64,000 bases of DNA from Nodosilinea sp. P-1105 (GCF_012911975.1 NZ_SMDQ01000004.1:62001-126000); one strand, 5' to 3'; positions 9,466-51,572 are shown, counted from the stretch's first letter. Made by a program: numbers and translations. The notes: generated from the letters alone by a model not told the origin.

Positions 9466-9520
9466 GAAAGGGCGTATCCTGCTGAATTAAGCAAAAAACC
9501 AGACGAGGATACACCCTTTC
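9466..9520. repeat. 15-bp inverted repeat abutting the 62-nt palindromic element
   Basis: GAAAGGGCGTATCCT and AGGATACACCCTTTC pair at 14 of 15 positions around a 25-nt loop. The right arm ends exactly where the 62-nt element begins. It may be a remnant of a mobile-element end. Confidence 0.55.
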
Positions 9521-9581
9521 AAGTCCAAACCTAAAGTTCTGCCTGTGGGGAAACTCCAGAGCTCAAGCTGGATTTGGTATA
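9520..9581 (+). repeat. 62-nt palindromic dispersed element, copy A (degenerate)
   Basis: Same element as at 11646-11707 and 42336-42397, with several substitutions in the outer and inner arms. It keeps the central AGTTCTGCCTGTGG and the end TTGGTATA. Confidence 0.75.
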
Positions 9582-9843: not shown

Positions 9844-10157
9844 GCTCCCTGGCTCATAGGGAAGCAACTGGGTTTCTAGGCGGCTCGGGCTCAAATGGAC
9901 GCAGCCGTAACTTGCAACTAATGTAGAAAGGCAGAAGTCAGTAGGGCTTTGCCTGTGCATGGCAGGCACTAAGGTGGCGGCAGTTCAATGGATCACTCCT
10001 TCAAATTGCCGCCGCCCTGACAGAGTTGTATGCACGCTGGCTATAGGTTTAAGTTAAGTTTCAAGTTAATTATTGATACCTGGATCAACGTAATGTAATC
10101 CTCAGCTTGACATTTTTCATCACCTGCATCTACCCTTTATAAGTAGAACAAGTCAGC
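9844..10157. other. Intergenic spacer before the c-di-AMP riboswitch
   Basis: No gene seen. A hairpin (GGCGGCAGTT / AATTGCCGCC, 9976-10013) could terminate upstream transcription. TATAAG at 10138-10143 is placed where a -10 element for the riboswitch transcript would be. A TTGACA at 10107-10112 is too far from it (25-nt spacer) to be its ordinary -35. Confidence 0.4.
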
Positions 10158-10311
10158 CTAGTCTACCGGCACCTTTTGGTGCTACTAGAGCGGGGGAACC
10201 GAAAAAGGGGCGTATTTCCGAGTTCTGAATACCCACAAGAGGGTAATCGGAAAAGGACATCTCTCAGTCCTAGCCCGTCAGCTAACCTCGTCGGCATTGA
10301 GGGGAGACTGA
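10158..10311 (+). ncRNA. c-di-AMP riboswitch (ydaO/yuaA type)
   Basis: The leader carries the conserved words of the ydaO c-di-AMP aptamer in the right order: a small hairpin (GCACC TTTT GGTGC), then AGAGCGGGGGAACC, then GAGGGTAATCGG, then a paired GGAC...GTCC arm with CTCTCA in its loop, then the highly conserved CCCGTCAGCTAACCTCGTCG, then a GGGGAGACT closing strand that can pair with AGTCTACC at the 5' side. The usp-usp-antiporter genes begin 95 nt downstream. In the known family, c-di-AMP binding usually lowers expression of potassium uptake, osmolyte and cell-wall genes. The expression platform is not obvious: a short T-run (ATTTTTT, 10320-10326) directly follows the aptamer. Confidence 0.87.
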
Positions 10312-10406
10312 ACCATCATCATTTTTTAATGACTGACTGTTTCAGTGTCTCGAGTCGTGTTAACACGGCTTGTTCGCTGTCCATGCATAGCCTCTAGGAG
10401 GGTTTT

Positions 10407-10994
10407 ATGCAACTTAAGTCACGCTCCTCCGTCTCTGCCCAGCCAGGGCAGTCATTTTGTGTTGACAGGGCTTTGTCTGTCTGGGATGGCAAGGCGTTGT
10501 TAAAACCGATGATTATGCGTTTAGAAGTCGCTTTAGGTCGCGACGGCCTGACCCAGAGCCTAGTGTTGGTGTCTAAGCCATCCTTACCTCCCTTAGGTGT
10601 TAACTCGGATCAAAAAAACATTGGTTTTGTTGTCGGCTACAGCGGTTCTGTACACAGCCAGGCTGCTCTAGATCTGGCCCTCTGCATGGCCCATCAGACC
10701 CGCTTGGTCAAGCCCAATCCAGTGGTCGTGCATGTGGTTTACGTGGTCGATCAAACCTGCCATGAAACCATTGCCAATGCCGATCGCGTTCTGTGGCAGG
10801 CTCGTTGTCTGGCTAGTGAGTGGCGGGGATCGCTGAACGCCCACCTGCGCATTGGTCAGGTGGCGACCCAATTAAGCCAGATAGCTGACGAGATGGATGC
10901 CGCTGTTTTGCTGTTGGGATGCCGCAGTAAAAGCCATAGGTTAGTAGAACAGCTAGCCCCTCAAATTTCCTGTTCTGTTCTGGGCTTGCCCTAA
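10407..10994 (+). CDS. Universal stress protein-like, degenerate nucleotide loop
   Basis: A 195-residue protein whose second half has the Usp alpha/beta fold: NIGFVVGYSGSVHSQAALDLAL begins the domain, VVVHVVYVVD is the next strand, and AAVLLLGCRSKSHRLVEQLA the last part. The G-x2-G-x9-G-(S/T) ATP loop is replaced by GCRSKSHRLVEQLAPQIS, so it probably does not bind ATP in the usual way. The first 65 residues are an unrecognised extension. AGGAGGG lies 5 nt before the ATG. It is the first gene after the c-di-AMP riboswitch, 15 bp ahead of the second Usp gene. Usp domains elsewhere (for example in KdpD) can bind c-di-AMP, so direct binding is conceivable but unproven. Confidence 0.8.
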   Translation: MQLKSRSSVSAQPGQSFCVDRALSVWDGKALLKPMIMRLEVALGRDGLTQSLVLVSKPSLPPLGVNSDQKNIGFVVGYSGSVHSQAALDLALCMAHQTRLVKPNPVVVHVVYVVDQTCHETIANADRVLWQARCLASEWRGSLNAHLRIGQVATQLSQIADEMDAAVLLLGCRSKSHRLVEQLAPQISCSVLGLP

Positions 10995-11009
10995 TAGGAG
11001 GAGATGGTC

Positions 11010-11528
11010 ATGGGCTTTAAAAAAATTCTCGTAGCCGTTGATGATCCGACAAAAGATGAGGTGGTCTTCAACCATGGCTTAAGCCTGGCGGTACCGAACC
11101 AAAGTCACCTTAGACTGGTTCACTGCCTAAGTTTAGACATTTACAGAAATCTGGGTTCCATGATGGACGCTGGGGTGGGGCTACACCCTCAATCTAAAGT
11201 GTTGGACGCTGGTGAAAAAGAGCATTTGGCCCGAACCCAGGCCGCAAAGTCCTGGCTAGAGACACTGCGTAGTCAGGCCGTAGCCCAGGGGATAGGGGCA
11301 GATTTTATCTGCGAAACCGGTGACCCAGGTCCGCTGATTTGTTACCTGGCTACCCTCTGGGAGGCCGAGGTAATTGTCGTGGGCAACAGCGGCAAAAAAG
11401 GTTTAAGACGACTGATTTTAGGCAGTGTGAGCCAGCACGTGGTGGATCACAGTTCCTGCCTGACGGTGGTTGTGCCCTGGGACGGCTCACCACCAGTAGA
11501 GTACCCTCCGGGCAAGACTGGTGGTTAG
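11010..11528 (+). CDS. Universal stress protein, UspA family
   Basis: A single-domain Usp of 172 residues. It begins FKKILVAVDDPTKDE, the first strand and nucleotide-contacting Asp. It has FICETGDPGPLICYLA in the middle and ends with an intact ATP motif VVGNSGKKGLRRLILGSVS (G-x2-G-x9-G-S). I prefer the ATG at 11010; the ATG at 11004 directly abuts the AGGAGGAG ribosome site. It is co-directional and almost contiguous with the preceding Usp gene, so both belong to the c-di-AMP-riboswitch transcript. The C-terminus (PPVEYPPGKTGG) is a short extension. Likely a nucleotide-dependent stress or transport regulator. Confidence 0.9.
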   Translation: MGFKKILVAVDDPTKDEVVFNHGLSLAVPNQSHLRLVHCLSLDIYRNLGSMMDAGVGLHPQSKVLDAGEKEHLARTQAAKSWLETLRSQAVAQGIGADFICETGDPGPLICYLATLWEAEVIVVGNSGKKGLRRLILGSVSQHVVDHSSCLTVVVPWDGSPPVEYPPGKTGG

Positions 11529-11645
11529 TTTGGTGATTAGCCTCAGGAGTTGAATTGATTGGCTACGTCTGACCAGATTGGAGCATCAATGTTGCTCTGA
11601 AATGTGGGTTCGAAGATTCCTCTCGCTGGTCGAAATGACATTGTT

Positions 11646-11707
11646 TATACCAAGTCCAGCTCGGGATCTGGAGTTTTCCCACAGGCAGAACTCCAGGTCT
11701 GGACTTG
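11646..11707 (-). repeat. 62-nt palindromic dispersed element, copy B
   Basis: Read on the minus strand it has outer arms CAAGTCCAG and CTGGACTTG, nested arms CTGGAGTT and AACTCCAG, then GTATA. It lies between the second Usp gene and the antiporter gene, where the hairpin could attenuate or stabilise the polycistronic RNA. Confidence 0.85.
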
Positions 11708-11766
11708 AATTTGGTTAGTTACGTTTCTCTGCTTACTAAGGGCTTACAGAAAATAAGGAGTCTTGC

Positions 11767-14277
11767 ATGGAGTCGATCTTGGGCCTACCGCTGCCGGTAG
11801 AAGATCCAATCTTGATCTTTGGCCTGTGTATGGTGGTGATCTTGGTGACGCCGCTGCTGTTTGAGCGGTTTAAGCTACCGGGGCTGATCGGCCCGATTGT
11901 GGCGGGGGTGGTGCTGGGCACCAGCATGCTCAACGTGCTGGAGCGGGGGCAGGCGATCGAGCTGCTGGGCAATGTGGGATTGCTCTACATCATGTTTTTG
12001 TCGGGGCTGGAGATCAACATGAACCAGTTTCGCAAAAACCGCGATCGCAGCTTTGTGTTTGGCGTCATCACCTTCACCATTCCCCAGCTAGCGGGCACGC
12101 TAATCTTCCACTACCTGCTAGGTTTTGATTGGCTGGCAGCGATTTTAATTGCCAGTATGTTTGCCTCCCACACCCTGGTGCCCTACCCGATCATCAGTCG
12201 CCTGGGCATCATGAAAAACGACGCGGTGGTCACCACCGTGGGGGGCACCATTCTCACTGACACCGTGGCCCTGCTGGTGCTGGTGGTGGTGGCCCGTGCC
12301 TTTGAGGGGGAACTGACCACCCTGTTTTGGGTGTCGCTGGCCCTGGCCATGGCCATCTACGTGACGGCGGTGCTGTATCTGCTACCGCCTTTGGCCCGCT
12401 GGTTCTTTCGCAATGTGGAAGATGGCGGTAAGAGTGAGTTTATCTTTGTGCTGGCAGTGGTGTTTATCGGCTCCTATCTGGCCCGGGCGGTGGGCACCGA
12501 GGCGATTTTGGGGGCGTTTTTGGTTGGTCTAACCCTGAATCGGCTGATTCCCGAACGCAGCCGGTTGATGACCCGCATCCAGTTCTTTGGCAACGCCTTC
12601 ATCATTCCCTTTTTTCTAATTTTTATCGGCCTTCTGGTAGACGTGTCAGTGCTGGCCAGTGGTATTACCGCCTGGGTGGTGATGATTGCCATGTTGACCA
12701 CCAACGTGGTGACAAAATTGATCGCGGCCAGCATAACGCGTCGCTTCTATCAATACACCCCTGCTGAGGGGTGGGTAATCTTTGGCCTCTCCACTTGTGA
12801 GGCGGCAGCTACCCTGGCAGCTACCCTGGTGGGCTACGAGTTGGGCATCATTGGGGATGATGTTTTGAACGGCGTTGTGCTGATGATTTTTGCCACCTGT
12901 GTCCTCGGACCCTGGGTGGTCGATCGCTTTGGTCGTCAGGTGGCCCGCGAACAAGACGAACAACATTACGAACCCCGTCAAGCTCCCCAGCGCATTCTAG
13001 TCCCCTTGGCCAACCCAGCCACAAGCGAGACCCTGGTGAATATGGCCGCTCTGCTGCGGGACCATAAGTCAGAGGAGGCGATCTATCCTTTGACGGTGAT
13101 TTCCGAAGCCATTGAGGCAGAAGATACGGAAAGTAATGTGGCTGCGGCCGAACGCCTGCTAGCCCATGCGGTTGTTCACGCTGTGGAGTTAGATGTGCCG
13201 GTTAACCCGGTGACGCGGGTGGCCCGTAATCCTGCCTCTGGCATGGTCGAAGCTGCCACAGAACGTCGCATTAGCGATATTGTGATTGGCTGGAATGGGG
13301 CCAGATCGGCTCAGCAGCGCATCTTTGGCTCTGTGATTGACCAAATGTTAGACCAATCTCCCCAGCAGGTGTGGGTCTGCAAGTTTGACCACTCAGTGAA
13401 TACCTTTCAACGCCTGGTTGTGATTCTGCCGCCAGTCATTGACCACAATCCTGGCTTTTATGAGGCTGTGCGATCGCTGAAACACCTGGCCGATCAACTG
13501 GGGGCTGCCTTGAAGGGGTTAGCCATCAGCGATGACGCTGTCTCCCATCGTCAGCATTTTGAGGCAGTGCCCATTGACGTGACTAGCGAATTTTTAGCGC
13601 TGGCCACCTGGGATGACGCCCATGGAATTCTGAGAACCGCATCCCCAGATCAAGATCTAATCGCCCTGGTGAGTGCCCGAGAGGGCACGGTTGCTTACGA
13701 TCGCACCCTAGAACGGTTACCCCAACTGCTGGCTGACTTGCAACTTAGCTTTTTAGTTCTTTACCCCTCAGAAAAGGACGCCCATTACCTGGGTGCAGCC
13801 CAGCCCCTTTTCCTCAGCCAGCTGTTAAGCCCAGAGCGAGTCATCCTCAATCTCACTACCTCCTCCTATGAGGAGACCGTGGATGTCTTACTCAGCCAGG
13901 TGATTGACTGCGACGACCCTCGCCATAGCCCTGTTCTAAAAGCGCTGGCGTTCGACGATGTGGGTTATGCCAGTGAGGTGCTGCCTAGGGTGATTATTTC
14001 CCATGCCCGGGTGCAAAAACTCAAAGGCCCAAGACTCTGCCTCGGGGTTCACCCACAGGGGATAGAGCGCGATCGCACGGAGCAACCCATCCATATCGTG
14101 GTCCTACTGCTTACCCCGGCCCGGGGCACCACCCCAGAGCACCTGGCCCAACTGGCGGAAGTCGCCCAGGCTTTCAGCCAGCCAGATCTACTGACCAAAC
14201 TGATGCAATGCACCCAACCGGAGCAACTGCAATCCTATCTGAGCCTCAGCGGCCAATGCGAGGGATCGCCCCCCTAA
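11767..14277 (+). CDS. CPA2-type cation/proton antiporter with Usp-like and EIIA-like C-terminal domains
   Basis: An 836-residue protein. Residues 1 to about 395 form a 12- to 13-helix CPA2 antiporter core (KLPGLIGPIVAGVVLG, GLLYIMFLSGLEIN, GGTILTDTVALLVLV with its TD pair, AILGAFLVGLTLNR). It would exchange Na+ or K+ for H+ at a membrane. The soluble tail starts at QRILVPLANPATSETL and continues as two Usp-like units (about 410-545 and 550-660). A last domain (about 690-830) resembles PTS EIIA: LLSPERVILNLTTSSYEETV, VIISHARV with the His, IHIVVLLLTPARG. AAGGAG precedes the ATG. It probably belongs to the riboswitch operon, 238 bp after the second Usp gene. c-di-AMP control of K+/Na+ transport is a known theme; ion preference cannot be told here. 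Confidence 0.9.
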   Translation: MESILGLPLPVEDPILIFGLCMVVILVTPLLFERFKLPGLIGPIVAGVVLGTSMLNVLERGQAIELLGNVGLLYIMFLSGLEINMNQFRKNRDRSFVFGVITFTIPQLAGTLIFHYLLGFDWLAAILIASMFASHTLVPYPIISRLGIMKNDAVVTTVGGTILTDTVALLVLVVVARAFEGELTTLFWVSLALAMAIYVTAVLYLLPPLARWFFRNVEDGGKSEFIFVLAVVFIGSYLARAVGTEAILGAFLVGLTLNRLIPERSRLMTRIQFFGNAFIIPFFLIFIGLLVDVSVLASGITAWVVMIAMLTTNVVTKLIAASITRRFYQYTPAEGWVIFGLSTCEAAATLAATLVGYELGIIGDDVLNGVVLMIFATCVLGPWVVDRFGRQVAREQDEQHYEPRQAPQRILVPLANPATSETLVNMAALLRDHKSEEAIYPLTVISEAIEAEDTESNVAAAERLLAHAVVHAVELDVPVNPVTRVARNPASGMVEAATERRISDIVIGWNGARSAQQRIFGSVIDQMLDQSPQQVWVCKFDHSVNTFQRLVVILPPVIDHNPGFYEAVRSLKHLADQLGAALKGLAISDDAVSHRQHFEAVPIDVTSEFLALATWDDAHGILRTASPDQDLIALVSAREGTVAYDRTLERLPQLLADLQLSFLVLYPSEKDAHYLGAAQPLFLSQLLSPERVILNLTTSSYEETVDVLLSQVIDCDDPRHSPVLKALAFDDVGYASEVLPRVIISHARVQKLKGPRLCLGVHPQGIERDRTEQPIHIVVLLLTPARGTTPEHLAQLAEVAQAFSQPDLLTKLMQCTQPEQLQSYLSLSGQCEGSPP

Positions 14278-51303: not shown

Positions 51304-51363
51304 AATCGTTCATCTCTCCTGTGAGAGACGGAAGTAGGGGAAGATCCCGAAGGAACGCGCCTC
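51304..51363 (+). ncRNA. Glutamine riboswitch (glnA type)
   Basis: The leader carries the glnA-motif words in order: ATCGTTCATC, a TCTCTC/GAGAGA stem, ACGGAAGTAGG, a GGG/CCC stem, and CGAAGGAACGCGCC. CGTTC (51306-51310) pairs with GAACG (51353-51357) as the closing helix. In cyanobacteria this aptamer binds glutamine and controls nitrogen genes such as gifB. The DUF4278 start is 38 nt downstream. Confidence 0.87.
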
Positions 51364-51401
51364 TGTTCTTACACACCTTCACCATTAAGGAGAGGCGGAT
51401 T

Positions 51402-51572
51402 ATGTCCCTGAAGTATCGCGGCGTTGATTACGAAGCTACCAATCCTCAAGTAGCTGTATCCGAAGAAGTGATTGGTCGCTATCGTGGCGCTCAAGTTAGC
51501 CGCCATGTGCCTAAGCAAGTTAAGGTTCAGCACCCCCAAGGTCTAAAGTATCGGGGTGCAGTGGTGCGGTAA
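51402..51572 (+). CDS. DUF4278 small protein, PirA-like candidate
   Basis: A 56-residue basic protein (MSLKYRGVDYEATNPQVAVS ... LKYRGAVVR) with the (L/K)-Y-R-G motif of DUF4278 near both ends. AAGGAGAGG precedes the ATG. As I recall, the Synechocystis PII-interacting regulator of arginine synthesis, PirA, is a small protein of this family and is nitrogen-regulated. The glutamine riboswitch in the leader makes a nitrogen-signalling role, possibly with PII, likely here. Direct homology to PirA cannot be shown from this window. A strong terminator follows, so it is a single-gene unit. Confidence 0.85.
   Translation: MSLKYRGVDYEATNPQVAVSEEVIGRYRGAQVSRHVPKQVKVQHPQGLKYRGAVVR

Follow-up and report, generated by a model that had tools for sequence, protein, structure and literature searches.

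In a stretch of 64,000 nucleotides from Nodosilinea sp. P-1105 (NZ_SMDQ01000004.1:62001-126000; hereafter the window), a cyclic diadenosine monophosphate (c-di-AMP) riboswitch lies in the 5' leader of the gene for a degenerate universal stress protein (Usp1), which is followed on the same strand by the genes for a second Usp (Usp2) and a cation/proton antiporter. Our integrated reading, to which we assign a probability of roughly 0.65, is that the riboswitch sets the expression of Usp1 and Usp2 and probably, by read-through, that of the antiporter, the cytoplasmic tail of the latter being regulated by other signals. The original prediction, made from this DNA alone, had the second messenger acting twice, on the RNA through the riboswitch and on the proteins through their Usp domains; the riboswitch, the Usp-Usp-antiporter set and its recurrence in relatives are upheld by our results, but the action of c-di-AMP at the protein level is not. 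The main elements are the following.

10145-10311, plus strand: c-di-AMP riboswitch aptamer (cmscan with RF00379, 69.9 bits; model R1, 118.8 bits)
10407-10994, plus strand: Usp1, a lone degenerate Usp of 195 residues, from a cyanobacterial family with the signature LWQARCLAxEW (Pfam, family alignment, AlphaFold2)
11004-11528, plus strand: Usp2, an ATP-motif Usp of 174 residues (Pfam Usp, E 2.4e-24; motif GNSGKKGLRRLILGS)
11767-14277, plus strand: CPA2-type cation/proton antiporter with a cytoplasmic tail, 836 residues (Na_H_Exchanger, E 6.6e-55)

Riboswitch and Usp1 as a conserved pair

The leader had been proposed to hold a ydaO-type c-di-AMP aptamer on the grounds of its conserved words, with the RF00379 covariance model named as a check; that search bears the proposal out with a score far above the gathering cut-off of 38 bits (E 3.7e-14), and places the start 13 bases 5' of the position 10158 first given. 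The score is higher still with R1, a cyanobacterial covariance model of our own. This is the sole copy of RF00379 in the 6.0 Mb assembly, which also contains one diadenylate cyclase gene, and 95 bases separate the aptamer from Usp1. The RF00379 class (ydaO/yuaA) has been reported as verified in cyanobacteria (PMC10117731) and includes the Synechocystis slr0753 switch, which belongs to the same covariance family as the element of the window but differs in the gene served, slr0753 being a putative chloride exporter; a further difference from the class is an insertion in one aptamer loop, found in the genus of the window. We infer that the leader RNA binds c-di-AMP.

Usp1 falls just under the Pfam threshold for Usp (PF00582; 22.4 bits, cut-off 24), which a homologue exceeds (L033, 32.6 bits), and searches of the PDB by sequence, with either Usp1 or its family profile, returned no significant match, so that fold comparison alone gave matches. 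The AlphaFold2 model, built with 44 family members (pLDDT, the predicted local distance difference test, 79), displays the beta-alpha Usp fold, with a best Z of 15.5 against solved Usps. Among these, TeaD of Halomonas elongata (3hgm) is likewise a small standalone Usp of the same fold (Z 15.1); it belongs to TeaABC, a transporter for the osmolyte ectoine. The transporter type is different, and a functional link between TeaD and Usp1 is an analogy only. Usp2 is a clear member of the family (86.9 bits in Pfam).

A comparison of synteny in other cyanobacteria had been suggested, and the pairing of switch and Usp1 does recur. Within the genus of the window (Nodosilinea-like; relatives named Nodosilinea, Leptolyngbya and Phormidium tenue), a Usp1 homologue is encoded in 21 of 28 genomes, and the riboswitch stands directly 5' of it in all 21. 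Usp2 comes next in 15 of 20 genus loci, and the antiporter is present in 6. Outside the genus, Usp1 homologues were found in Microcoleus, Oscillatoria, Fischerella and others, often in the order switch, genes of an NrtBAD-like ATP-binding cassette transporter, Usp1. Overall, the named Usp1 loci number 70 and come from several orders; the switch accompanies 55 of them, of which 14 belong to the genus and were assigned by way of their counterparts, while 41 are from the 56 other loci. Two switch-Usp1 units per genome were observed in two cases (L034 and L050 in G343; L045 and L051 in G304).

Targets of the riboswitch across Cyanobacteria

In a class-wide sample of 62 switches, which were chosen regardless of Usp from the higher-scoring matches and thus not at random, the first recognised target was tallied by hand: a CitMHS exporter in 24 (in one of them with ExoD between switch and exporter), NrtB of an NrtBAD-like importer in 16, Usp1 in 15, a CPA2 antiporter in one, and other genes in six, namely a glycosyltransferase, a P-type ATPase, ExoD before a P-type ATPase, two M23 peptidases and one unassigned product. 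The CitMHS exporter and the NrtBAD-like importer are the main targets of the switch in cyanobacteria, which the original prediction had missed. The loci with P-type cation ATPases, ExoD proteins and M23 peptidases 3' of c-di-AMP switches are L139, L168, L006, L142, L141 and L157. A DNA match to the riboswitch of the window occurs on plasmid pAQ7 of the laboratory strain Picosynechococcus sp. PCC 7002 (L204, 4001-4067); the genes just 3' of it are ntrB, one for a binding protein of the CmpA/NrtA family, one for an ATPase and one for exopolysaccharide.

The antiporter is rare: among 390 class genomes, 12, counting that of the window, encode a full-length orthologue (E up to 1e-150). Eight of these, from five genera, have a full switch of their own within about 0.75 kb 5' (L172, L175-L180 and L182); in a further one (L174) the match is degenerate, at 36 bits, two have the Usp1 switch only (L173 and the window), and one has none (L181). 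The order switch, standalone Usp, antiporter is found with four orthologues. Because eight of the 12 carry their own switch, the antiporter is, as judged from gene order, tied to the c-di-AMP switch independently of the window. These counts bear on the view that the neighbourhood arose by chance and that the switch is unrelated to the function of the Usps or the antiporter: with the switch at Usp1 in 21 of 21 genus genomes, Usp1 as target of 15 of 62 switches, and eight of 12 antiporters so equipped, we find it hardly credible, with nothing found in its favour, and for Usp1 the comparative counts already refute it.

The antiporter and its tail

The tail of the antiporter was divided into three parts.

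12988-13383, plus strand: tail Usp unit 1, with ATP motif GWNGARSAQQRIFGS (Pfam Usp, E 1.8e-12)
13411-13782, plus strand: tail Usp unit 2, degenerate (predicted fold A5)
13807-14250, plus strand: tail EIIA-Ntr-like domain of the phosphotransferase system (PTS), with an invariant histidine, codon 14002-14004 (Pfam PTS_EIIA_2, E 1.1e-9)

Every product had been held to contain a Usp fold, with two Usp-like units in the antiporter; the AlphaFold2 models agree for Usp1 (Z 15.5) and for the tail (Z 19.1), and Pfam for Usp2, but the description was incomplete, as the third tail domain had been missed. The Pfam architecture is Na_H_Exchanger, Usp and PTS_EIIA_2, the last with 38.9 bits (cut-off 27). 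In the AlphaFold2 model of the tail (pLDDT 79; predicted template modelling score, pTM, 0.60), which comprises two Usp units and the EIIA-Ntr domain, residues 18-277 align to the tandem Usp 3ab7 with the Z just given, and the EIIA-Ntr domain aligns to 1a6j with a Z of 17.1, both as predicted folds. The nearest solved relative of the antiporter is the Na(+)/H(+) antiporter 4bwz (E 1.6e-19), with KefC (8bxg) at E 9e-7, and the score with the NCBIfam CPA2 model TIGR00932 stays under the cut-off (113.9 vs 238.3 bits, E 9.5e-33); by similarity the protein is CPA2-like, outside TIGR00932, and the ion that it exchanges may be Na+ or K+, as first proposed. It thus shares the transmembrane domain of antiporters of the NapA/KefC type, whereas KefC has a KTN/RCK tail in place of Usp-Usp-EIIA-Ntr.

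With EIIA-Ntr (PtsN) the tail shares the fold and an active-site-like histidine (ISHAR), which is present in 12 of 12 orthologues; unlike PtsN, the domain is fused to an antiporter. The genome encodes a protein with an HPr domain (Pfam), the translation of which reads as an EIIA-HPr-EI fusion, the domains other than HPr being judged by eye, so that the cell probably has a phosphate donor; the EIIA domain of the antiporter may then be phosphorylated.

Possible action of c-di-AMP at the protein level

The USP domains of KdpD bind c-di-AMP, their marks being the motif (A/G/C)XSXSX2N(Y/F) and the loss of the Walker A motif (PMC8214093). The c-di-AMP-bound KdpD USP (7ji4) resembles Usp1 in fold (Z 11.8, lower than for many ATP- or AMP-binding Usps), in the missing ATP motif and in the GxSxS part of the loop; it differs in having the full motif and in being part of a histidine kinase, while Usp1 is a standalone protein. 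The ATP (Walker A) motif G-X2-G-X9-G-(S/T) is absent from all 44 Usp1 family members, and the GxSxS core occurs in 27 of them, but N(Y/F) in none; in Usp1 itself, GYSGS matches the KdpD motif in part, with Ser and Gln in place of Asn and Tyr/Phe. Usp2 and Usp unit 1 of the antiporter carry the ATP motif as G-X2-G-X9-G-S, which is kept in the antiporter Usp of 10 of 12 orthologues.

A dual action, in which c-di-AMP works on the RNA and also binds to Usp1, Usp2 or the antiporter Usp units, would find precedent in KdpD and support in the missing ATP motif and the GxSxS core of the Usp1 family. Pulldowns with c-di-AMP also enriched the Synechocystis antiporters NhaS5 and NhaS2 (PMC10117731), which would count here if these are related to the antiporter of the window. 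Nevertheless, the full KdpD motif was found in 0 of 44 Usp1 family members, and neither in Usp2 nor in the antiporter tails tested, and the ATP motif of Usp2 and of the antiporter Usp also speaks against it, so that we regard dual action as unlikely and the second action through Usp domains as unsupported, though it may still hold for Usp1. Literature searches directed at cyanobacterial antiporters of the Usp or EIIA kind under c-di-AMP control returned nothing relevant. Still bolder, and in our opinion quite improbable, is the proposal that Usp1 is the founding member of a group of cyanobacterial standalone non-ATP Usps, which are controlled by the riboswitch, bind c-di-AMP and tune co-regulated transporters, including an antiporter that reads PTS phosphorylation through EIIA.

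Leader architecture and direction of control

The leader of Usp1 contains the following elements in addition to the aptamer.

10107-10136, plus strand: likely promoter, TTGACA, 18 bases, TACCCT (by eye, from an alignment of 18 leaders)
10302-10351, plus strand: expression platform hairpin 1 (predicted fold; z -4.56 for 10299-10375)
10352-10371, plus strand: expression platform hairpin 2, stem nearly invariant and loop variable (predicted fold and leader alignment)
10388-10409, plus strand: predicted hairpin enclosing the Usp1 Shine-Dalgarno sequence (AGGAGG) and start codon (fold of the window leader)

Promoter-like boxes, aptamer and hairpin platform are common to the 18 genus leaders, with both boxes conserved just 5' of the aptamer; the second reads TACCCT in the window and TACAAT in most relatives, and a consensus scan did not report this promoter because the second box matches at just 3 of 6 positions. 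Over the 16 distinct leaders the pairs of hairpins 1 and 2 are mostly kept, several with one-sided changes; in hairpin 1, the outer pairs are mostly kept in 15-16 of 16, and the inner part varies with its pairs mostly kept. The tail of hairpin 2 is UUGUUCG, with no classical U tract. A terminator/antiterminator switch, in which hairpin 2 could be lengthened by five invariant pairs at the expense of hairpin 1, was considered and rejected, as invariant pairs are uninformative and no U tract follows.

When the leaders of relatives are folded one by one, most show a hairpin like that over the Shine-Dalgarno sequence, formed by other pairs. Three inner pairs are kept in 16 of 16 leaders, and the pairs at the start codon do not hold a common register, for which reason this hairpin is weaker evidence; compensatory change in it, suspected by eye, was not confirmed in register among the 16 distinct leaders. 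Two observations, the placement of the Shine-Dalgarno sequence and the start codon within a predicted hairpin and the failure to find a classical terminator in the leader, would put control at least partly at the translation of Usp1. In PMC6488665 and PMC7288161, the tested examples of the riboswitch class are OFF switches, and because of these c-di-AMP binding is assumed to lower expression here as well.

Elsewhere in the window

A glutamine riboswitch (RF01739) matches at 51305-51361 on the plus strand (61.1 bits, cut-off 35), beginning shortly before a short open reading frame (51321-51572) whose C-terminal part reads MSLKYRGVDYEA.

Discussion

The genes had been described as one Usp-Usp-antiporter operon. 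The set does stand behind a c-di-AMP riboswitch, but it is not a plain tight operon, as 9 bases separate Usp1 from Usp2 and 238 bases, on the same strand, separate Usp2 from the antiporter. This gap contains a repeat:

11646-11716, strand not assigned: palindromic repeat of about 71 bases, forming a strong hairpin and found in both orientations in at least 42 genomic copies

A similar palindromic stretch near 9505-9578 was found by eye and folded. As for a riboswitch remnant in the gap, RF00379 gave none and the best unfiltered R1 match was 6.9 bits; no classical terminator was called there. It could be, then, that the switch controls Usp1 and Usp2 only in this genome, the antiporter being independently transcribed after the loss of its own riboswitch: the 238-base gap with its multicopy hairpin repeat and the lack of any remnant above 7 bits, while most orthologues have their own switch, both point that way. 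On the other hand, the genes share a strand with no terminator called between them, and in a relative (L051 of G304) Usp1, Usp2 and the antiporter stand in the same order behind one switch; the gap there is 76 bases long, and a second switch is absent. We therefore consider independent transcription of the antiporter somewhat unlikely, and co-transcription from the leader plausible in the window. At another locus (L034, 8804-8904, minus strand), the interval from Usp2 to the antiporter contains a degenerate riboswitch match of 36.4 bits, which could represent a stage on the way to losing a switch dedicated to the antiporter.

Several points weigh against the riboswitch governing all three genes in the manner that we favour. 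Unlike most orthologues, the antiporter of the window lacks a second switch, and this, together with the strongly folding repeat, means that it may have its own promoter. Furthermore, the Shine-Dalgarno hairpin forms in an unconstrained fold of the whole leader without pairing to the aptamer, which makes the direction of control uncertain, and, if the ion is K+, placing an efflux system under OFF control is not what one would first expect.

On the reading that we prefer, the c-di-AMP riboswitch would set the expression of Usp1 and Usp2, and read-through would probably extend this control to the CPA2 antiporter, whose Usp unit would most likely read ATP or the energy state and whose EIIA domain would most likely read the phosphorylation state of the PTS. 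On the model of TeaD and TeaABC, Usp1 and Usp2 may tune transporters of the same regulon. Taken together, our results describe a conserved cyanobacterial Usp family tied to c-di-AMP signalling, a link which is testable, and three recurrent targets of the switch in the phylum, namely the CitMHS exporter, the NrtBAD-like importer and Usp1; at the antiporter, in turn, three signals could converge, with c-di-AMP acting by expression, ATP at the Usp unit and PTS state at EIIA.

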